47,663 nucleotides of DNA from Bacteroidales bacterium (GTDB taxonomy: Bacteria > Bacteroidota > Bacteroidia > Bacteroidales > JAFGHD01). Position 1 is the first letter of the stretch, and each line of letters begins with the position of its first letter. Of this stretch, positions 915 to 13,081 are shown piece by piece. The stretch covers positions 1 through 47,663 of the forward strand of contig JAFGHD010000092.1 of the NCBI GenBank assembly GCA_016939365.1, given 5' to 3'. A program made the translations under genes and the position numbers. The notes beneath the pieces were generated by a model. It worked only from the letters and a program-made list of their open reading frames with translations. It searched no databases and was not told the origin of the DNA.

Positions 915-3911
915 CTACCTGATGATAAACCTCCCGGAGGCCGTCGTACCGCTGGCCCTGTCGGTGATCCTGCATATATAAATCCCGGCGGGCATCTGAG
1001 CCCGGCTGATGAGAATCCGGTGTGCCCTGATGTCTGTCATATGCAGCATCTCAACTCCTGAATAGCTGAAAACGGTCATATCAATCGTGCTGAACCTCCA
1101 GTCAGGGTGGATCACGATCATTGCCGATTCGCTGAAGGGATTGGGAATGATATCGAAGCCGGGTTTACCCTGTGTGTAGCAGGATATGTTGCTGATGACA
1201 GGACTGTTCTCTTCGCCGGGTGTACCGTTTCCCTGCGAGGCTTTCCAGTTTTCGGGAAGTGCGTTGTCCAGGCCCGGATCGATCAGTTCCAGGGTGGGCC
1301 CGTTTCCGTCCGGATCAGGCGGCCAGGGGGGATCATCATCATAATGTACGGTATCTACAGGAATTCCTTCTGCATTGAACAGCCTGAGCAATTCGCCGCT
1401 CCCTTCAAAGCCAAAGCCAGTGGGACCCAACCAGTTGTCCACCTGAGGAAACAGGCTTTGAAAAGCTGCCGTATCGGAACAAAGAACCAGGTATCCCTCC
1501 GCACCGATCTGGGTACCCAGCGGGAATTCAAAGATGTGCTGGTCATCCCCATCGCGGAACTCCCATCCTGAGATATCCAGGGAATAGCTATGGGGGTTGT
1601 AGAACTCCAGCCAGTCGCCGGGATCGAAGGAAGGTGCCGAGTTATAGTTGATCTCATTGATCACGAGGCTGTCGGTGATCAACCGGGGCTGGAATATGGC
1701 ACATATGGTGTCTCCCTGCACCAGGTTCACAAACACCTCGCGAAGGGTGTCCGAGGGTGTTACGGTATGCTCGCCAAGTGCCCAGTGATCGAATTCATAA
1801 TACAGGTCCGATTCGATGGCGAGGAGCCTGACGGGTATTCCGCCATAATAAAGCCCTTCCCATGGGTATTCGTTCAGGACGAGAGAATTGATCTGCACCT
1901 GCCCCCCCTGCGGTGGGTCCACCCTGACTACAACGTCGTAAGGACCGGTAAGCGACCAGCAGTTGTTCATTCCGGAGGGCAGGACGCTGTTGCGTGTAGT
2001 GATAAAATCCCTTATCTTCTGCACGTTCTCGTGCCATTCTGTCAATAAGCCGCCCCAACGATTGACATGCCTGGGCATTTCGGGTTCGATCAGCATCTCG
2101 AGGCTGTCCAGCATATGGATCATCGACTCGGTTTGGAAACCAGTGTTCAGCAAGTCCGCATACCGGTTGATGTAATACTGGTCAAAACCGGGATTCTCCC
2201 GCAACTTGTTCAGTACTGTAATATGACCTTCGGGATCCTGCCAGCCGCTGGTGAGATATTCAGGGTAACAGGGGGCAACATAAGGATTCTGCCCTGGCAC
2301 ACCGGTATAGTTGATATAGTGTCCGAAAGTGGCATCCTCGTCCCAGAGGGTGTATCCCCATCTGAGATGAGTCCCTTCAGGACTGAGACCTCGCCACCAG
2401 CCGACATTCCAGTTGAGCCAGTCGGAACAGACGACGAAGGAATTGATGATCACATAATCCACCAGGCTGGTCGGATCGTATTGCGACCAAACGTACGAAT
2501 AATTGTCCGGATCACTCATGTCGTTATTCACAATGAATGAATGGAGGGCATTCCAGTCCTGGATGGCCTGCTGGCCCCCGTATTCCGGCCAGGTGGAGCC
2601 CCAGGTCATGATGTACTGAATGTGGAACTTATCCTGGTTGTAATAGTATTCCGTGAAGTCATGATCATTGACCTTCTCCCGGATGGAATAGACGCCCCAG
2701 AACTGACCGTTGGCAAACATGATACACCGGACGCCCCTGCGGACATCCAGTTTCATTCCCATCATGCATGCCTTGTCCTGGATAAAAATATCCCTCATAT
2801 GAGCACTGCTGTCGATACCGGGATAATTGTCGTCGCCGGCCGCCCGCAAAATGATCCGCTGGAACTCATTCCTGTCGGTCAGAGGAGCAAGCATATCCTC
2901 CTGCAGGGCATAATTGTAACCGCACTCATCACGGGTTACATAGTCGATGCTACGTTGCGGGTGCACCCACGAATCCTGGCCGTGTTCGTTGAATTCACCA
3001 TAAGCAGTTGTGGTTCTCACTCCCTCTGTGTTGAAATATTCGATGGAACCCTGCGGCCGGAGACTTGCATTTCCGTTCAGCAATTCCAGAAGCTGGTCAG
3101 CGGCTGATGAGATCACAACCAGGGAATAGGTCTCGTCGATGAAAAAAGTGTTGAACTCGATCAGGCCTGGCAGCACCATGGGATCGGTGCTGATCACCCG
3201 GGCTTTGAGAACTGTGGTGGTATTGATGACCAGAGGCTGCTCATAGACCGGCGATGTGCTGACCGGTTCCTTTCCGTCAAGGGTATAGTGGATGAAGGCA
3301 TCGGGCTCTGCGGAGGTGATCCCCACCGTTACCATACCGGTATAAAAACCTGCCGAATCGCTCATAAGCGGCCGCTCTGCATATCGGGAATAACAATTCT
3401 GACTGTTGTTGGATGTACCCGGTGTCGGGCTGACGAAAATACCCCAGGTTTGGCCGCCATCCTCCGACCTGCCCCTTGAATGGCCCTTCTGGGTGATCCC
3501 GAGTTCCACATGGTCAATGATATTCCCGAATATATCCGATAGTACGATATGCTCCTTCAATGCTTTGGTCTGTGTCAGCCTGAAGTTGGTATGATAATGG
3601 CCTCCCGAGATGTCGTCCCTGCCCGAGGCCCAGCACCTGATGAAGGTGTGGGACTGCATCACCGTCCCTGCCGGTATTTCCCATTTGGTGGTCTCAATGG
3701 TATCGTCGCTCAGGAAATAACCGCCGATATCCAGAGGGTTCGGCCCTGCATTGTACAACTCGAACCAATCCTCGAACTGCGAATAATTATCCGGAAAGCT
3801 GTTGAGGTTGGAGACGGAATATTCGTTGATCATGATCTGTGCCGGAAGGAAGCCGCAGAGCAGGCAAAAGCCTGTGAGCGGCATAATGCTGCAAATTTTG
3901 AATCGTTTCAC
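915..3911 (-). CDS. Secreted CotH-kinase/lamin-tail domain protein with T9SS sorting domain
   Basis: A 998-residue exported protein. Order: signal peptide 1-25 (GTG start at 3911, chosen because it supplies the MKRFK positive end); lamin-tail domain about 26-140; chitobiase/HexA-C-like beta domain about 180-245; CotH kinase-like domain about 310-600 with REK (411-413) and WDEDATFG (523-530), matching the catalytic Lys-type and metal-binding motifs of the family; a repeat-like beta domain ending CAIFQP; a second lamin-tail domain; and a C-terminal T9SS type A tail with IIPNPF and AGIYICRI. CotH proteins are known protein kinases on spore coats, but in secreted Bacteroidota proteins their targets are unknown. 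It stands alone: the next minus-strand gene upstream ends at 4168. A cell-surface or extracellular role is inferred. Confidence 0.88.
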   Translation of the reverse strand: MKRFKICSIMPLTGFCLLCGFLPAQIMINEYSVSNLNSFPDNYSQFEDWFELYNAGPNPLDIGGYFLSDDTIETTKWEIPAGTVMQSHTFIRCWASGRDDISGGHYHTNFRLTQTKALKEHIVLSDIFGNIIDHVELGITQKGHSRGRSEDGGQTWGIFVSPTPGTSNNSQNCYSRYAERPLMSDSAGFYTGMVTVGITSAEPDAFIHYTLDGKEPVSTSPVYEQPLVINTTTVLKARVISTDPMVLPGLIEFNTFFIDETYSLVVISSAADQLLELLNGNASLRPQGSIEYFNTEGVRTTTAYGEFNEHGQDSWVHPQRSIDYVTRDECGYNYALQEDMLAPLTDRNEFQRIILRAAGDDNYPGIDSSAHMRDIFIQDKACMMGMKLDVRRGVRCIMFANGQFWGVYSIREKVNDHDFTEYYYNQDKFHIQYIMTWGSTWPEYGGQQAIQDWNALHSFIVNNDMSDPDNYSYVWSQYDPTSLVDYVIINSFVVCSDWLNWNVGWWRGLSPEGTHLRWGYTLWDEDATFGHYINYTGVPGQNPYVAPCYPEYLTSGWQDPEGHITVLNKLRENPGFDQYYINRYADLLNTGFQTESMIHMLDSLEMLIEPEMPRHVNRWGGLLTEWHENVQKIRDFITTRNSVLPSGMNNCWSLTGPYDVVVRVDPPQGGQVQINSLVLNEYPWEGLYYGGIPVRLLAIESDLYYEFDHWALGEHTVTPSDTLREVFVNLVQGDTICAIFQPRLITDSLVINEINYNSAPSFDPGDWLEFYNPHSYSLDISGWEFRDGDDQHIFEFPLGTQIGAEGYLVLCSDTAAFQSLFPQVDNWLGPTGFGFEGSGELLRLFNAEGIPVDTVHYDDDPPWPPDPDGNGPTLELIDPGLDNALPENWKASQGNGTPGEENSPVISNISCYTQGKPGFDIIPNPFSESAMIVIHPDWRFSTIDMTVFSYSGVEMLHMTDIRAHRILISRAQMPAGIYICRITDRASGTTASGRFIIR

Positions 3912-4167
3912 GTCAAGGCTGTATATGTGAGCACAAAGTCAGTCAAAACCGAAAATTGACCCTGCGGGAATTATTCCACCATATCATGCGATTATGCGAA
4001 AGAAACGACGGTCTGTAAAAAGGCCGGATCAAACTGCAAACTGTATGTATCTTTTTCAGCGATACACGGGTACGCGATATCCCTTTTTATATCAAGACAT
4101 CAAAACACCCGGAAATGTTGCTTTCACCCTGCCAAACGACAGGCCGGATCCTTGCCGGGAGGGTTCA

Positions 4168-5988
4168 TCAGGCCTTGGCAGTGACCTTTTTGGGTTTTCT
4201 GTTCCGCACGTTCGTCAGTTTTTCATGCATGGCCCGCGCGGCAATCCTTCCGGCACCCATAGCCTGGATCACAGTAGCTGAACCGGTGACGATATCACCT
4301 CCGGCATAGACGAACTCCTTGGAGGTCTCCATAGTCTCCGGATTGGCTTCGATATAGCCCCATTTATTGCGTTTCAGATCGGGGGTGGACTGGAAAATGA
4401 TCGGATTCGGGCCGGTGCCGATGGCGATCACCACGAGATCGGTCTCGATAACAAACTCTGATCCCTGGATGGGTACCGGCCTTCTCCTTCCGGAGGCATC
4501 CGGTTCGCCGAGCTCCATCTTGATGCATTCCAGTGCCTTGACCGTATTGAAGTCGGTACCTATATAACGGACCGGGTTGGTAAGCAGTTTGAACCGGATA
4601 CCCTCTTCCTCGGCGTGATGCACCTCCTCCGCCCTGGCGGGCAGCTCATGGCGGGACCTACGATAGACGATGGTCACCTCACCCGAACCGGTGCGTATGG
4701 CGGTACGGGCACAGTCCATGGCTACATTTCCGCCACCGATCACCACCACCTTGTTGCCGTGAGGCATCGGTGTGTCGTACTCCGGGAACCTGTAGGCCTT
4801 CATAAGATTCATCCGGGTAAGGTATTCGTTGGCTGAAAATATCTTGCCAAGGCCTTCACCTTCGATGCCCATGAATCTGGGCAGGCCTGCTCCCACACCG
4901 ATGAACACCGCATCGAACTCCTGCAGCAACTCGTCAATGGTATACAGGGTGCCGATTACATGATTGGTCTCGATACGGACACCCAACTCCTTGAGATAAT
5001 TGATCTCGAACTGTACGATAGATTTCGGCAACCTGAATTCAGGTATGCCATAGGTGAGCACACCACCCGTCTCATGAAGGGCTTCGAAAACGGTGACGGC
5101 ATAGCCGAGCTGACGCATATCGGCAGCAACGGTAAGACCTCCCGGGCCGGAGCCGATCACGGCGATCTTCTGGCCGGTGTTGGATTTGACGATGGGCACC
5201 TTCACCAGATCCATCTTGCGCTCGTAATCTGCAACGAAACGCTCCAGCCGGCCGATGGCTACCGGTTTATCCTTGTGCCCCATGATGCATTTCGCTTCGC
5301 ACTGGTTCTCCTGGGGGCACACCCTCCCGCAAATAGCAGGGAACAGGTTGGTTTCCTTGATCCTTTTTGCGGCCTCATCAAATTTCTCCTCGGCGATAAA
5401 TGCGATGAAACTCGGGATGTCGACATTCACAGGGCACCCGGTAACACACTGCGGGTTTTTGCACTGCAAGCAACGGCCGGCCTCAAGAAGAGCCAGCTCA
5501 GTAGTATAACCGTAAGGCACCTCCTGATGGTTGTGCACCCTGAGGGTCTGATCCTGCTCAGGCATATCCTGCCGTGGGATCTTGAGCTTGATCCGCCGTT
5601 CGTCCTGCTTTGAGAGACCGTGCCATTCGCAACCGTACTTCATGCAGACATAGAACGGGATCAGTTTCGACAATGCGGAAATGATCACCTTTGCTAACGG
5701 CGATCCGCATTCACCACAGGTCATTTCCTTGACGACCAGTCCCTTCTTGCAGTGCGGGCAGATCAGGTCGTCAAGAATTTCACCATGCTTGATATCTGCC
5801 GATGATTCTACCTCGAAGACATCAAGGTAAGGGCTCAGCCTGAGATCGTGCTCCTCTCCCCTGAACCGTGCAAGAAACTCGATCTGCTTGTGATCCTTCC
5901 GCTCCACATTGAAACTGTGGTGACAATGAGGACAGTAAGTGTTGAGGTATGTCTTGAACTTTAAATACTTGACATCGTGCTCCAGCAT
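4168..5988 (-). CDS. nfnB: NfnB-like NADPH-binding subunit with N-terminal zinc-ribbon extension
   Basis: 606 residues. From about 150 on it matches the GltD/NfnB flavoprotein family: first iron-sulfur set C173, C176, C181, C185; second C220, C224, C230, C234; FAD-binding GSGPGG (279-284); NADP-binding GGGNVAMDCART (418-429). NfnB with NfnA couples NADH and reduced ferredoxin to NADP+ reduction by flavin electron bifurcation. The gene is often named glutamate synthase small subunit, but no gltB is here and an NfnA gene sits 20 bases upstream, so Nfn is the better call. Oddity: the usual protein is about 465 residues; here residues 1-140 are an added module with C19/C22, C77/C80, C91/C94 and C115/C120, clearly related to both halves of the zinc-ribbon protein at 6864-7736. 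Last gene of the operon. Confidence 0.85.
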   Translation of the reverse strand: MLEHDVKYLKFKTYLNTYCPHCHHSFNVERKDHKQIEFLARFRGEEHDLRLSPYLDVFEVESSADIKHGEILDDLICPHCKKGLVVKEMTCGECGSPLAKVIISALSKLIPFYVCMKYGCEWHGLSKQDERRIKLKIPRQDMPEQDQTLRVHNHQEVPYGYTTELALLEAGRCLQCKNPQCVTGCPVNVDIPSFIAFIAEEKFDEAAKRIKETNLFPAICGRVCPQENQCEAKCIMGHKDKPVAIGRLERFVADYERKMDLVKVPIVKSNTGQKIAVIGSGPGGLTVAADMRQLGYAVTVFEALHETGGVLTYGIPEFRLPKSIVQFEINYLKELGVRIETNHVIGTLYTIDELLQEFDAVFIGVGAGLPRFMGIEGEGLGKIFSANEYLTRMNLMKAYRFPEYDTPMPHGNKVVVIGGGNVAMDCARTAIRTGSGEVTIVYRRSRHELPARAEEVHHAEEEGIRFKLLTNPVRYIGTDFNTVKALECIKMELGEPDASGRRRPVPIQGSEFVIETDLVVIAIGTGPNPIIFQSTPDLKRNKWGYIEANPETMETSKEFVYAGGDIVTGSATVIQAMGAGRIAARAMHEKLTNVRNRKPKKVTAKA

Positions 5989-6008
5989 GGTACTTCGGAT
6001 TGTATGAT

Positions 6009-6833
6009 TTATCTGATGGAAAACAGGAGGGAGTCCTTCTCCTCTTTCAGGTAGAGGGAGTTCCGGTTGATCAGCTCGTCGAAGTCGACTTCAAATCCGT
6101 CGAAATCGGGGCCGTCGACACAGCAGAAACGGGTTTCATTGCTGACCCTGACCCTGCATCCGCCACACATTCCCGTCCCGTCGATCATGATAGGATTCAG
6201 GCTGACCATGGTTTTGATGTTGTGTTTCTTTGTCAGTTTGACGACATTCTTCATCATTACGATGGGTCCGATGGCATATACCAGCTTGATATCGTAACGT
6301 TCTTCGAGGTATTTACCGAGGGGGTCGGTAACGAATCCCAGCTGGCCGTAGCTTCCGTCGTCGGTGGTCACGACCAGTTCATCACAGATATGATCCATTT
6401 CATTTTCAAGAATGAGCATATCCCTGTCGCGGGCTCCCATGATGCCGATCACATAGTTTCCCGACTCTTTAAATGCCTTGGCCACGTGATGCAGGATGGC
6501 GACGCCTGTACCACCCCCAACCATGATCACCGTTCCGATTTTCTCCGCCTCGGCGGGCCGGCCCAGGGGGCCTACCACATCACGTATCATATCGCCCTCC
6601 TTCAGGGAACGCATAAGTGCAGTGGTCTTACCTACGACCTGGAATATGATGGTGATGATGCCGGCAAACTCATCTTTGTCGGCCACCGTCAGCGGTATCC
6701 GCTCCCCTGTCTCGTTGACCCTGACAATGACAAACTGCCCGGCCTTGACCTTTTTGGCAATTTTCGGGGCATTGATATCAAACCGTATGATGGTTCCCTG
6801 GGCCATTTCCTGTCTTCTGATGATCTGAAACAT
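6009..6833 (-). CDS. nfnA: NfnA-like FAD/NAD-binding subunit with [2Fe-2S] site
   Basis: 274 residues from the ATG at 6833; a TTG at 6854 would add seven residues, but the ATG gives the usual family start (MFQIIRRQEMAQGT). Ferredoxin-NADP reductase-like fold: FAD motif RIPLTVAD, NAD-binding MVGGGTGVAI, and a C-terminal DGTGMCGGCRV...FCCVDGPDFDG segment that fits the small [2Fe-2S] site of NfnA/PyrK-type subunits. In NfnAB this subunit binds NAD(H) and passes electrons to the large subunit. It lies 30 bases after the zinc-ribbon gene and 20 bases before nfnB, so the three are almost certainly co-transcribed. The alternatives, PyrK or sulfide dehydrogenase SudB, are less likely given the GltD-like partner next door. 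Confidence 0.85.
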   Translation of the reverse strand: MFQIIRRQEMAQGTIIRFDINAPKIAKKVKAGQFVIVRVNETGERIPLTVADKDEFAGIITIIFQVVGKTTALMRSLKEGDMIRDVVGPLGRPAEAEKIGTVIMVGGGTGVAILHHVAKAFKESGNYVIGIMGARDRDMLILENEMDHICDELVVTTDDGSYGQLGFVTDPLGKYLEERYDIKLVYAIGPIVMMKNVVKLTKKHNIKTMVSLNPIMIDGTGMCGGCRVRVSNETRFCCVDGPDFDGFEVDFDELINRNSLYLKEEKDSLLFSIR

Positions 6834-6863
6834 AACCGAAGAATTAATTAACAAGGCAATACG

Positions 6864-7736
6864 TCACCATTCATCGCTCTCTTCCAGCCTGATGGTCTGC
6901 AAATCCTCCTCGCTCAGGCCGTGCCAGCGGCAGCCTTTTTTGGTACACATATAGAAATCGATCAGCTTGGTGCTGGCGCTGATGTTGATCCGGGCAACCG
7001 GTGAGCCGCAACGGCCGCAACGTGTTGTGGGCTCCACCAGTGAACGGTCACAATGAAAACACTTCACATCGCTGACCACCTTATCCTCCGGAAGGAAAAT
7101 GGTGGAGCGGCTGGTAAAGACATTGAGATAAGGACTGAGCAACAGAAAACCTTCAGTTCCATTGGTTATCTTGAGTTTGAGCATTTCACCCTCGATCAGG
7201 CTTTTGCGGCAGTGGGGGCAGTAGCTCTGCAGAAAAGTTCCGGTCTCAATGATCTCTGTGTGCTCATTCCTCACTATTTCCACTTCCTTTAGAGGATGTT
7301 CGGCCATATGCTCCTCCCTGGGATACTTCCTGCCCCGGAATCCATACTCCTGATAAAGCTTCCTGAGGGCCTGCGAAAGGTCCTCAAATTCCACATAGTG
7401 GTTTTTACAACCTACCCGTGAACAAATACTCACCTTACCTCCCATATCCAGGTAAAAATCCACCATCAGGGCACCGCATGTCAGACATTCCGACTTGGCA
7501 TTCAACTCTTTACCGCAATGCGGACAGAAGAATCCCGCCACCTTGCCCTTGACCAGCGGTATATTGCAGGTATAGTTATAACTTCCGTAGATCGAGCTCA
7601 GATGGATCACCCCTCTTTTGCCTTCCATCTCGATATCCAGGCAGATGCTGGGCTGATTGTCAACGGGTTTGTTCTTATCCATGAATGACTCCCCGCAATG
7701 GGGGCATTTCAGGCTCAATGAAACAAATTCGTACAT
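6864..7736 (-). CDS. Duplicated zinc-ribbon protein, first gene of the nfn operon
   Basis: 290 residues of unknown function made of two related modules. Module A (about 1-130) has C11/C14, C71/C74, C84/C87, C105/C110; module B (about 160-290) has C173/C176, C226/C229, C240/C243, C264/C269. Both end with a C-x4-C pair followed by Asn/Trp-His. Module B closely matches residues 1-138 of the NfnB protein at 4168-5988: shared LSPYL.VF, CG.CGSP.A, KLI.FY.C and WHGLS. No enzyme motif, signal peptide or membrane segment. Four Cys pairs per module suggest two zinc sites (inferred). Position and shared module argue for a structural, assembly or regulatory role in the Nfn complex. A weak promoter-like box (TAAAATTG, 7779-7786 minus) lies upstream. 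Confidence 0.8.
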   Translation of the reverse strand: MYEFVSLSLKCPHCGESFMDKNKPVDNQPSICLDIEMEGKRGVIHLSSIYGSYNYTCNIPLVKGKVAGFFCPHCGKELNAKSECLTCGALMVDFYLDMGGKVSICSRVGCKNHYVEFEDLSQALRKLYQEYGFRGRKYPREEHMAEHPLKEVEIVRNEHTEIIETGTFLQSYCPHCRKSLIEGEMLKLKITNGTEGFLLLSPYLNVFTSRSTIFLPEDKVVSDVKCFHCDRSLVEPTTRCGRCGSPVARINISASTKLIDFYMCTKKGCRWHGLSEEDLQTIRLEESDEW

Positions 7737-7778
7737 ATCGGTTTTCCTTTTTTTCCAAACGGGTCACGTATTCAGGTA

Positions 7779-7786
7779 CAATTTTA
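7779..7786 (-). promoter_or_regulatory. Possible -7 box of the zinc-ribbon/nfnAB operon
   Basis: On the minus strand this reads TAAAATTG, one base off TAnnTTTG, about 43 bases before the start of the zinc-ribbon gene. I found no good -33 TTTG at the right distance. The 221-base gap 7737-7957 holds nothing else I can name. Confidence 0.3.
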
Positions 7787-7957
7787 CAATAAATTAATGG
7801 ATGTCACATGCAAATATCGCGCGATGCAGATTTAGTAACACCCCGGGAAATATGTATTTTTTTGAATATCAAATCCATCTAAATGATATCGGGGTCACAA
7901 TTTGTAGAGAGTTTAAATAACCGCACTGGCGGATGCATTTCTATGAAAGACAGGTGT

Positions 7958-10900
7958 CTAGCGGACTGTGATCACTGAAATCCTCTTTTTCCCGTCCATT
8001 CTGACCTTAAGGGGTTCGCCGAATTTCACATGTTTGAAATACTTCGTTCGATGGATCAGTTCAGCATTATCCAGCTTGCGGAAATCGATGAAGCTGTCTG
8101 AGATCTCCGGCTGGACACTGAAATAGCCCACATTCATGGAGGTGACATTATGAAAGAAATGTGATCCCGAGGAGGCATCCAGCGGAAATCCTTCCAGGCT
8201 GGTTTCGACGATCACCTGGGCATTGGAAATCTGGGGCCAGTTCACCGGTATGCCGATCCAGCGGTCGCGTGTACCCCAGCGCCCGGGCCCGATCAGGATG
8301 TACTTCCTCCCCTGATTGATCATCTCCTTGTTCAGCATGTCAATCTCACGTACCATCTCTTCCGTTTTTGTCTTGTCAAATGCCTTCTCATCCACAAAGA
8401 TCACATCACTGATGGAGCTGATGAGGCCGTTTCCCATCCCTTTTTCGGTAAACAGGAGGATGTCATCTTTTGTGATCTGATCCATATCGACCTGATAGTC
8501 CTGTGCGCTACCCAGGAGCGGTTTGATCTGGAGGAGGTAGAAAGATGACTTGTAATTCCTGTCCCGGTGGAGATCGACGGCAAACTCGATCTCCACCGGT
8601 GATCCCAGAGCTTCCTTCACCACGTCAAGCACCACTTCGATGGTTCTTGCCAGAGGGGTATAATTGTATTTCAGCACATTGGCAAAATTCACCACGCGCG
8701 GGCCGGGTTTATCCAGCCCGGGTGTGATGATGTGGTTGTCACTGTTGTAAACCGATGCGCAGTGTTTCAGGGTGCCGTGCATTTCGGCCGCGTCTATGTC
8801 GAGCTGGGTCAGGCCGGCCATGTCACCTTCCAGCAGGTTCAGATCCCGTTTGTTGAGGTCCACAGCAAGGAAATGAACCTGAGAATTCTTGTACAGGTCC
8901 TTGGGGGTCATGATCTCGGTAGCGGGGTACTTTGGTGAAAAACGGAAAGCCTTTTCACCCTCCACCACATATTTTCCCAACCCTAAAGCAAGCACGGCAA
9001 AGCCTTCCTCGGGTTTCATGTGGGCCACCGGGTAGTAGTTATAGGATTGGGCCACACCGCTGATATGGGGATAGAACACATCACCGTAACGGTTGCCCAC
9101 AACCTCCTGTATGACCACCGCCATCTTTTCCTCTTCCAGCTTATAGTTGACCGCCCGGATATATCCTCTGGCCGTATCGGAATATACCGATGCAAAAACC
9201 AGCTTGATGGCATCCATAAGCTGTTGAAGCCTGACGTTCAGGTCCGGATGGTTGTTGGGCAGAAGGTATGTCTCGAAGATTCCCGCAAAGGGTTGCATCA
9301 GCGAGTCCTCAAACAGTCCGGAAGAACGGATGGCCAGGGGCTTATCGATAGCCCTGACTATTTCCTTGAGACGCTTGACCAGGGTATCGGTGAGTTTCCC
9401 CCTGAGAAACAGTTTCTTCAGCTCCTCATAATCGGTTTCGTCGCTGTGAATGAAATCGTAAAGATGATTACGCTCAAGGAAATACTCAAATTCATTGGTT
9501 CCGATAACGGATGTCTTCGGAGTCCGGATATTGATGTTCGAGACGAATGCGGAAAAATCGTAGTTGTAAATCAGGTTGTTGACAAAGGCAAGTCCGCGGC
9601 CTTTCCCGCCGAGTGAGCCTTCAGAGAGGCTAACGATATTGGTTTCGTCGAGTATGGCAGATTTCTCAAACGGTATGACCTTGCCCATGTTCTGCTCATT
9701 CCTGAATTTCCGGATCACACTGACGAGGTAATTTCTGACTTCCTCAGCATCATTGAATTCGTGAACCTTTTTAGGGTTCAGGATCCGGGCGGCCTGAATC
9801 TCACCCCGGGCCATGAGCCAGAGTGAAAAGTGATTCTTTCGTGCATGGTAGAGGATTGATTCAGCAGGAATGGTCCGGAGGTTCTGCTCGAACTCGCGGA
9901 GGGATCTGGCCACCACAAGCTGCTGGCCGTTTGCATCACGGTAAATGAAGTTCCCAAACCCCAGGTAATGAGTGATGAAACTTTTGAAGTCCTGTACCAG
10001 GCTTTCGGAATCCTTGTCAATAAAAGTGGCCTTGAGTTCATAGGCAGTTGCAGCCACCTGAGGATCGCTCGACTGGACGATCACGGGGAGGTCTTTCACC
10101 ATACCCTTGATTTGCTCCACAAGTGATATACCGGCCCGTTCGTCAGGTTGGCCGTCTTTGCTGAACCTGACATCCGTGATCAGGCACAACAGGTACTCCC
10201 TGTAACGGTTGGCAATATCCAGGGCCTCCTCATAGCTGGATGCGAGCAATATTTTAGGCCGTGCCCTGAGCTTAAGCACCTTGTAAAGATCATCGGTGCT
10301 GACGTCATCAATGATCCTGCGGGTCTGCTCCAGAACGATCTGATACAGCATGGGCAGGTATCTCGAGTAATATTTGGGAGAATCTTCCACCAGCAGGATG
10401 ACCCTGACCAGTCCCTTCCGGGTATCATTCTCCACATTGATCCGGTCTTCCACATGCTTGATCATTGCAAAGAAGATACTGGACTCTCCGTTCCAGACGA
10501 ACACCCTGTCGAAGGCAAGCGACACATCCAACTGCTCTACAAAAAAGATGTCGCTGTTATTGTTCAGCAGCAGGAATACAGGAATGTAGGGGAAGCTTTT
10601 TTTGATCCTGTTGCTGATACGCAGGGGGGATTTTTTATCGGCGCCCATCATCATGATGACCAGGTCGAAATGTCTCGATTCGAGCTGTTCAAAGGCCTCC
10701 TCCTCAGAAGAGACACCGGTGATGCGTGGAAGGGATGTGAGGTTCAGTTGGGCGTACTCTCCGAGCATATGCTCGGAGAACCGGCCTTCCTTTTCGATGC
10801 TGTAGGCATCATAGAGGTTGGCTACCAGGAGGATTTCACCCACCTTGAAGGGCATCAGGTCATGGTAGATATCCCGGTCGTAATTGTTCTTGTTCAGGAA

Positions 10901-11416
10901 CCGCTGCAGGAGCTGCCGGCTGGAGGTACCGGCTTTTTCCCTCTTTTCAGATTCCCGGTCACCCTGGCGGTATCCCTCCTGCTGCTTCAAAAAGGCTTTC
11001 CCCTGAATGCCGTTCAGGTAACCTGAGATAATGATTGAAAGATTCTGCAACAGATCCCGCTCTTCCTTCAGAAACGATCCTTCATCCTCTTCGGGAAAAA
11101 GCTTCGTGTAATAGACTTCAATAGCACCCTGCCGGTTGTCGATGGTTGTGAAATCCTGTTGCTGGAACCATTCGGTCTTGCGGAAATCGTGTGAACGATA
11201 TTCGACTCCGTCATAGAGGATCCTGGCGACAGCAAACTCCGGGAATTGCCATCCATTGGGGAGGATCAGGGCGATCTTCTGGAGGGTTTCCTCTACAGAT
11301 TTTCCTTCCTTGATGATCTTGTTGGTCTGGTTGATGGTTGCCAGCTCCTTGAGGCGTTCAATAGTTTCCGCCCTCAACTGCTCGAATCTCTTACTGAGGT
11401 GTGTGTTCTCCGGCAT
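7958..11416 (-). CDS. Receiver/PEP-synthase-like ATP-binding fusion protein
   Basis: 1152 residues. About 1-140: helical start and a GAF-like sensor region (GAIEVYYTKLFPEEDEG). About 190-310: a receiver-like fold with MMMG where the phosphoacceptor Asp should be, so probably inactive. About 335-485: a second receiver-like domain that keeps E344/D345, candidate phosphoacceptor D415 (LITDVRF), S449/S450 and K468. About 595-830: PPDK/PEP synthase N-terminal ATP-binding domain with GGKGRGLA (603-610), AIRSSGLFEDS (695-705) and GIFET. The C-terminal part has LIGPGRWGTRDRWIG. I see no phosphohistidine swivel domain (no TSHAA-like motif) and no PEP/pyruvate TIM barrel, so it cannot be a complete PEP synthase. 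Such proteins are annotated only as PEP/pyruvate-binding domain proteins. Function unknown; a signal-controlled phosphotransfer role is inferred. Confidence 0.82.
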   Translation of the reverse strand: MPENTHLSKRFEQLRAETIERLKELATINQTNKIIKEGKSVEETLQKIALILPNGWQFPEFAVARILYDGVEYRSHDFRKTEWFQQQDFTTIDNRQGAIEVYYTKLFPEEDEGSFLKEERDLLQNLSIIISGYLNGIQGKAFLKQQEGYRQGDRESEKREKAGTSSRQLLQRFLNKNNYDRDIYHDLMPFKVGEILLVANLYDAYSIEKEGRFSEHMLGEYAQLNLTSLPRITGVSSEEEAFEQLESRHFDLVIMMMGADKKSPLRISNRIKKSFPYIPVFLLLNNNSDIFFVEQLDVSLAFDRVFVWNGESSIFFAMIKHVEDRINVENDTRKGLVRVILLVEDSPKYYSRYLPMLYQIVLEQTRRIIDDVSTDDLYKVLKLRARPKILLASSYEEALDIANRYREYLLCLITDVRFSKDGQPDERAGISLVEQIKGMVKDLPVIVQSSDPQVAATAYELKATFIDKDSESLVQDFKSFITHYLGFGNFIYRDANGQQLVVARSLREFEQNLRTIPAESILYHARKNHFSLWLMARGEIQAARILNPKKVHEFNDAEEVRNYLVSVIRKFRNEQNMGKVIPFEKSAILDETNIVSLSEGSLGGKGRGLAFVNNLIYNYDFSAFVSNINIRTPKTSVIGTNEFEYFLERNHLYDFIHSDETDYEELKKLFLRGKLTDTLVKRLKEIVRAIDKPLAIRSSGLFEDSLMQPFAGIFETYLLPNNHPDLNVRLQQLMDAIKLVFASVYSDTARGYIRAVNYKLEEEKMAVVIQEVVGNRYGDVFYPHISGVAQSYNYYPVAHMKPEEGFAVLALGLGKYVVEGEKAFRFSPKYPATEIMTPKDLYKNSQVHFLAVDLNKRDLNLLEGDMAGLTQLDIDAAEMHGTLKHCASVYNSDNHIITPGLDKPGPRVVNFANVLKYNYTPLARTIEVVLDVVKEALGSPVEIEFAVDLHRDRNYKSSFYLLQIKPLLGSAQDYQVDMDQITKDDILLFTEKGMGNGLISSISDVIFVDEKAFDKTKTEEMVREIDMLNKEMINQGRKYILIGPGRWGTRDRWIGIPVNWPQISNAQVIVETSLEGFPLDASSGSHFFHNVTSMNVGYFSVQPEISDSFIDFRKLDNAELIHRTKYFKHVKFGEPLKVRMDGKKRISVITVR

Positions 11417-11722: not shown

Positions 11723-13081
<1,359 letters not shown>

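Follow-up and report, generated by a model that had tools for sequence, protein, structure and literature searches.

What purpose might a domain serve that is present three times in one operon for a predicted electron-bifurcating transhydrogenase? The question is raised by a 47,663-nucleotide contig of a Bacteroidales bacterium (JAFGHD010000092.1, assembly GCA_016939365.1), the whole of which is referred to here as the window. Its minus strand encodes, in order, a free protein of 290 residues (6864..7736), NfnA (6009..6833, with the ATG at 6833) and NfnB (4168..5988; 606 residues). The free protein is built of two copies of a module of some 130 residues, and a third copy is fused to the N-terminus of NfnB. 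With moderate confidence, we read the module as a structural double zinc ribbon that would dock or regulate ferredoxin/NAD(P)H redox complexes, and not as a bespoke Nfn subunit. The module family is real, conserved and apparently undescribed, and the Nfn form is one of its several uses. Numbers preceded by L, G and C are our handles for loci, genomes and contigs, respectively.

Three module copies in the nfn operon

Module A covers approximately residues 1-133 of the free protein (7338..7736) and is followed by a linker and by module B (approximately residues 160-290; 6867..7259). Module C covers NfnB residues 1-142 (5563..5988); all three are on the minus strand. The Cys pairs are spaced CxxC, CxxC, CxxC and Cx4C, and are found at residues 11/14, 71/74, 84/87 and 105/110 in module A and at 173/176, 226/229, 240/243 and 264/269 in module B; the same four pairs are present in residues 1-140 of NfnB. 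The His after the last pair is invariant in eight and in 19 aligned modules. Modules B and C further have in common the motifs LSPYL.VF, CG.CGSP, KLI.FY.C and WHGLS. Compared with 1000 shuffles in which every Cys was held in place, the Smith-Waterman scores correspond to z values of 29.4 (B-C), 7.5 (A-B) and 8.8 (A-C), and for each pair the score was matched by 0/1000 shuffles. The similarity of the three modules is far beyond chance. A preliminary description of the locus had recognized the two related modules of the free protein, the third copy on NfnB and the four motifs, all of which are borne out by the Cys positions, the z values and the presence of every motif in both modules; the gene gaps that it gave, 30 bases (6834-6863) and 20 bases (5989-6008), agree with the open reading frame coordinates.

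Judged by their sequences, the NfnA and NfnB of the window are clear members of their families. NfnA is a sulfide/dihydroorotate dehydrogenase-like FAD/NAD subunit (PRK06222, expectation value E of 1.6e-115, 385.4 bits against a cut-off of 220). The core of NfnB is intact, with Fer4_20, Pyr_redox_2 and TIGR01316 (583.5 bits, cut-off 471.75); Fer4_20 occupies residues 150-259, just after module C, and both [4Fe-4S] ligand motifs are kept (row L003). The extension is an addition to ordinary NfnB, as had been claimed: the best solved relative, 4ylf, aligns only from window residue 139, and all 12 solved NfnB relatives found in the PDB align from window residue 135 or later. The window therefore resembles NfnAB in both cores and in the two cluster motifs of NfnB, but differs from it in the 140-residue N-terminal module and in the free two-module protein that leads the operon. 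Four Nfn architectures are described in the available part of a review (PMC6405883), which mentions no such extension, and the word 'zinc' is absent from its main text. In the open-access literature (subscription papers and preprints being outside the scope) nothing was found that joins NfnB or electron bifurcation with 'zinc ribbon'.

Relatives of the module were placed in trees; a few of the rows labelled as single are in fact truncated pieces of fused genes or of split two-module genes. Module A falls with single proteins of 133-138 residues (Shimodaira-Hasegawa-like approximate likelihood-ratio test, SH-aLRT, 95). Module B joins the NfnB module, with an SH-aLRT of 99 for the whole B/C group, and in general the modules on NfnB fall together with the free protein's second module. 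The modules of NfnB, of NuoE and of a histidine kinase form separate groups (SH-aLRT of 99, 96 and 96, respectively), which implies at least three fusion or insertion events. The approximately unbiased test on the NfnB label (p of 0.33) is uninformative, as some tree rows are mislabelled as single. All eight Cys residues are kept in 40/40 B modules and 39/43 A modules of two-module proteins, in 15/15 NfnB modules and in 20/21 NuoE modules.

Linkage to fused NfnB and other genomic homes

The module profiles were run on 295 genomes of the order, 59 of which have a match (E <= 1e-10), and the linkage counts given here are among the 150 matches listed, from 52 of these 59 genomes. These matches comprise 38 two-module genes and 29 fusions of NfnB length, a class called by frame length in which 22 members were identified as NfnB separately and the other seven by length alone. 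A two-module gene is situated just upstream on the same strand for 25 of the 29 fusions, with 874-1598 bases between its modules and that of the fused NfnB. Among the four fusions that lack one, L178, L243 and L244 meet the contig end inside NfnA or within 0.3 kb, and L141 has 3.4 kb of readable upstream sequence. No fusion is found within 2.5 kb of 13 of the 38 two-module genes. The tie of the two-module gene to fused NfnB is conserved.

Fused NfnB forms one clade relative to unfused NfnB (28 rows from fetched loci, 16 of them fused; SH-aLRT 100), and both [4Fe-4S] ligand motifs are present in 17/17 module-fused NfnB proteins examined, the window gene included. In 119 genomes of the order, 77 matches exceed the TIGR01316 cut-off; their frames measure 590-645 residues in 17 cases, an ordinary 380-535 in 51 and 740-790 in nine. 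The module is present in all 11 long-form NfnB loci fetched from the order, and none of the 30 NfnB loci fetched from a second phylum shows it. A 606-residue NfnB of another phylum (L302) has an N-terminal extension in which the module is absent.

The module is not confined to nfnAB, although the preliminary description had tied the two together. The tie holds for the two-module gene and fused NfnB; exclusivity does not, as the module also occurs fused to NuoE, alone in hyp and hydrogenase clusters and as an insert in a histidine kinase, the kind of spread that had been named in advance as speaking against a role specific to Nfn. The context counts below refer to stretches chosen and fetched from among the matches, and several of the gene names come from BLAST against reference genes that were themselves named from their translations.

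Two-module genes lie beside unfused NfnAB in L137, L139 and L238, and two-module or single genes lie beside NuoE-NuoF-StnC/HydA-like genes in L050, L133, L134, L179, L234 and L257. As the two-module protein specifically is encoded next to unfused NfnAB or NuoEF/Stn-like genes (L137, L139, L238, L050 and L234), pairing with an NfnB module is not required. Of 21 genes in which the module forms the C-terminus of NuoE, 14 have a glutamate-synthase-domain gene within 8 kb; it usually follows NuoF, which in some loci includes an NfnB-like part, and a 2Fe-2S protein (L051, 4163-10499; L154-L158, L160-L162, L164, L165, L167 and L240). The NuoE-module, NuoF, 2Fe-2S and glutamate-synthase-domain cluster might form an NAD(P)H-linked complex that is as yet unstudied.

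In nine loci (L171, L249, L250, L252, L253, L256, L260, L262 and L265) a single-module gene lies directly between hypE and hypB on the opposite strand, and seven of these nine genes encode fewer than 140 residues; L012 and L264 have single genes in Mvh-Hdr operons. Contig C162 of the source genome encodes a 158-residue protein and a 133-residue A-type protein with 52% identity to module A. The genes between the two are, in our own readings, Crp-like, two HdrA-like, HdrC/membrane, MvhD, the hydrogenase subunits MvhG and MvhA and a hydrogenase protease, and past the 133-residue gene come hyp genes. A weak third further match in this genome is on contig C161. A single module gene in L136 (9088-9492) has neighbours that we take to be selenium/TusA-like and CoA-dehydratase-activator-like. 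One alternative is an assembly or maturation factor, which would act as a chaperone for Fe-S flavoenzymes and [NiFe] hydrogenases or would supply them with clusters or metal. In its favour, 15 of the 29 single genes of fewer than 140 residues have hyp-type genes at a distance of no more than 8 kb, and nine loci have the hypE-hypB placement; a transient factor would have no need of permanent fusion to NfnB and NuoE or of insertion in a kinase, and ordinary Nfn is found without the module. We consider such a role quite unlikely.

In the histidine kinase, the module is inserted in the ATPase domain, and HAMP, HisKA and HATPase domains were found in the two kinases scanned. In 36 of 37 records, among which are some copies of the same locus that overlap, the insert comes before the G1 box; in all 16 records in which the search pattern detected an N-box, it comes after that box. 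This placement would suit a regulatory part. Response regulators are near the kinase in ten of the 11 loci with flanks. Kinase loci include L047 (8425-10296) and the similar L043-L049, L052, L055 and L056; in L047 the genes after the kinase encode first a response regulator that carries a glycine-cleavage-H-like domain as a fusion and then a second response regulator.

Of 26 distinct two-module genes, 22 have redox, hydrogenase or hyp genes within 8 kb, as do 22 of 29 single genes of fewer than 140 residues; two of these 29 are halves of one split two-module gene (L251). As the per-class counts overlap (the reference HydA1209 contains an NfnB-like domain), these are counts of any such neighbour. 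With self-matches excluded, redox neighbours are found for 16/16 fused NfnB and 18/21 fused NuoE genes. At the same thresholds they are found in none of 18 control stretches; 19 had been taken, of which L270, the one left uncounted, likewise showed no match, and L276 has a 25% NfnB-like match that falls below the thresholds. These figures bear on the suggestion that small zinc-ribbon proteins of some other function, for example nucleic-acid binding, merely happen to lie near redox genes. Zinc ribbons are common and 17 of 48 single copies are without any tested neighbour, but the NfnB and NuoE fusions and the empty control argue the other way and make the suggestion very doubtful.

Fold and predicted metal

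Searches of Pfam and NCBIfam revealed no specific family for the module, only generic zinc ribbons over short stretches, a few of them at or just above the cut-offs. DZR (PF12773) matches the free protein at 27.5 bits (cut-off 27.3), the best stretch being just 22 residues, and does not appear among the 25 Pfam families that match NfnB with E of at most 1. A sequence search of the PDB with the module profile retrieved generic fingers and RING proteins (best E of 2e-5, over short zinc-finger stretches). An AlphaFold2 model of module B (predicted local distance difference test, pLDDT, 83.2; predicted template-modelling score, pTM, 0.77) is mostly β, with a short C-terminal helix. Aligned with VIA-align, its second half weakly resembles polymerase subunit-9-type ribbons (Z of 4.4, root-mean-square deviation of 2.2 over 46 residues), which we take to be of the polymerase subunit-9/TFIIS type, and a Foldseek search of module B against the PDB returned nothing significant (best E of 0.42). 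The module shares with the generic double ribbons (Pfam DZR, Zn_ribbon_6) and the subunit-9 ribbons its CxxC knuckles and a weak resemblance over 46 residues, but only short stretches match and its own first two knuckles are approximately 50-60 residues apart.

The ligands of relatives bear on the nature of the metal. The first knuckle is C-x3-H instead of CxxC in 27/27 distinct kinase copies and also in 13 of 25 single copies from frames of at least 145 residues; in the knuckle table, some rows classed as 'other' may be CxxC missed by a narrow pattern. The last Cys of the module is often replaced in kinase copies, most of which lack it. Zinc is commonly held by a mixture of Cys and His ligands, and rubredoxin iron rarely is. 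The C-x3-H that stands for the first CxxC in every one of the 27 distinct kinase copies therefore favours zinc over iron, and the module is probably zinc-binding.

The preliminary description had also raised the prospect of an extra electron wire, should the Cys residues hold iron; rubredoxin-like iron in the module would then pass electrons to Nfn or take them from it. A site with two CxxC-type knuckles could accommodate Fe(Cys)4, and the context is one of electron transfer; all eight Cys residues, which such a site would need throughout the family, are present in nearly all Nfn-linked copies. The C-x3-H knuckle of the kinase relatives and of about half of the longer single copies points away from iron, as does the family search, in which no rubredoxin family was listed for the free protein in Pfam or NCBIfam except for a rubrerythrin-like model at E of 0.5. 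The wire has become less likely than when it was proposed, and we regard it as very improbable.

A redox or oxygen switch is a further alternative, in which oxidation of zinc thiolates would free the metal and shut down or protect the bifurcating enzyme, the kinase copy signalling by the same chemistry. An insert in the ATPase domain of a kinase encoded beside DsrO-like/cytochrome genes and response regulators would suit a sensor, and a gene that we read as Crp-like adjoins the single copy in the hydrogenase locus of the source genome, in L174 and in L264. The kinase copies, with C-x3-H for the first CxxC and mostly without the last Cys, would be poorly suited to it, and the strict conservation of eight Cys residues elsewhere fits a structural site equally well. 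We think a switch unlikely.

Proposed role and distribution

The module is fused immediately before the Fe-S domain of NfnB and at the C-terminus of NuoE and is inserted in the ATPase domain of a kinase, positions that suggest an element for docking or control near the entry or exit of electrons. The module thus looks like a common docking or control part of the electron-sharing enzymes of anaerobes. In the favoured reading of a structural double zinc ribbon, the three copies, two free and one on NfnB, would be parts of a single Nfn transhydrogenase assembly. The free protein would most likely bind next to the fused copy, at the iron-sulfur end of NfnB; we infer that it might then tether a partner complex or adjust Nfn activity. 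Candidate partners are products of NuoEF/Hyd/Stn-type genes, which are next door in several genomes and not in the window. Many of the other contexts of the module are still redox complexes or their control genes, and so the docking or regulation envisaged in the preliminary description survives, the pairing of modules through which it was to work not being required. In a bolder form, one zinc-ribbon socket would let Nfn, Stn/Hyd, glutamate synthase and hydrogenase dock mutually or to a shared regulator and, in the histidine kinase, would report the state of a respiratory complex to the ATPase domain; as a whole this is rather improbable. The genomics is strong and the biochemistry as yet unproven.

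Several observations weigh against the docking or regulatory reading. All 11 kinase loci are without bifurcating or hydrogenase genes and have DsrO-like/cytochrome genes instead. The full set of eight Cys residues is found in 0/27 kinase, 12/30 longer single and 36/42 shorter single copies. The fold matches described above are weak by both Foldseek and VIA-align, and the model of the full 290-residue protein is poor (pLDDT of 68, pTM of 0.43), too poor for a structure search. The control is soft, with several stretches of just 4-9 kb and loci of one order that are not independent. No tested neighbour was found for seven of the 29 single genes of fewer than 140 residues, for ten of the 19 of at least 140 residues or for the two-module genes of L229, L231, L233 and L236; downstream, the stretch is cut by a contig edge in L229 and L233, unlike in L231 and L236. 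Finally, a genome of the same genus (G845) has a 500-residue NfnB frame and one full module copy, in a 138-residue frame, so Nfn exists without the module.

Among the closest known parallels are bifurcating enzymes with zinc. HydB has a zinc hinge, a single zinc in the NuoF-like subunit held by three Cys and one His (PMC9499530, as far as available), and the zinc of StnB also lies within the NuoF-like subunit (PMC10482914, available part). The likeness is that of a zinc site near the iron-sulfur clusters of a bifurcating enzyme; the difference is that the window family would be a separate 130-residue module with two predicted sites, carried on NfnB, NuoE or free proteins (the structures were not compared directly). 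The module profile, at E up to 1, matches 35 PDB sequences, none of which is a HydB or StnB chain; such chains are not in the VIA-align rows for module B either, an absence that excludes nothing. Copies of the module that stand next to NuoE/NuoF-like genes or are joined to them give the family a likeness to the Bfu/HydABC/StnABC enzymes, but no such module is described in the available parts of PMC9304861 and PMC10482914, which present the NuoE cluster domain of the Bfu and Stn enzymes as a moving gate; the word 'zinc' is absent from the main text of PMC9304861. In our judgement, the ways in which bifurcating enzymes are controlled or linked to their partners are little known. With its separate fusions to NfnB, to NuoE and in a kinase, and without a specific Pfam or NCBIfam family, the module offers a testable handle on this problem: one 130-residue domain could reveal a docking or control principle common to several anaerobic redox enzymes, and would provide a clue to proteins that are still without a name in the hyp and nfn clusters.

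The genome searches, those of the order included, scored limited first-look candidates per genome, so that absences are soft. Module profile matches were found in 29/395 genomes of the phylum (E <= 1e-5), mostly of the kinase form, in 22/297 of a second phylum (E <= 1e-6) and in 12/17 of a third (E <= 1e-10). Among the nearest relatives, 13 of 41 genomes match (E <= 1e-6), three of the 13 by short matches to the N-terminal part alone. Short or weak matches are all that G858, G862, G878 and probably G455 and G774 contribute to these tallies, and G956 and G398 are evidently one genome, with matches in the same places. The short N-terminal matches were kept out of the context counts by the E cut-off, and a few (for example L122) enter the ligand and knuckle tables. 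They include a separate family that matches only the first part of the module (L057, 4638-5099; L058, 1811-2209; L181-L186), mostly of approximately 130 residues with E of approximately 1e-8-1e-10; the two members scanned have no Pfam family above the cut-off. A contig from a Candidatus Heimdallarchaeota metagenome-assembled genome (L009) carries the whole Nfn/NuoEF/two-module gene set. Its phylum has matches in 2/148 genomes (E <= 1e-6), one of them only at E of 9e-7, leaving a credible locus in one of the 148. The gene content of L009 is that of L232 and L235, two loci from the Bacteroidota phylum, with the orientation of one block reversed, which suggests either transfer or a misbinned contig.

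In the window, the operon is flanked downstream by a 998-residue protein with CotH kinase and lamin-tail domains (915-3911) and on the other side by a 1152-residue protein with a PPDK_N ATP-binding domain and weak receiver-domain matches (7958..11416, minus strand) and by an NADP-specific glutamate dehydrogenase (11726..13081, plus strand); NuoEF is not next door. An Rfam scan of the window gave no match at gathering scores, and promoter and terminator scans of 3850-8050 gave no excess over the expectation from shuffled sequence. Two of these neighbours recur: among the 26 distinct two-module genes examined, the PPDK_N protein is found within 8 kb of seven, and in L007 it is also upstream of the gene, and the glutamate dehydrogenase is found within 8 kb of six. 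The 1152-residue PPDK_N protein recurs near the two-module gene in L229, L230, L232, L233, L235, L236 and L240, accompanied by the NADP-glutamate dehydrogenase in all but L240, and the pair also occurs in L051.

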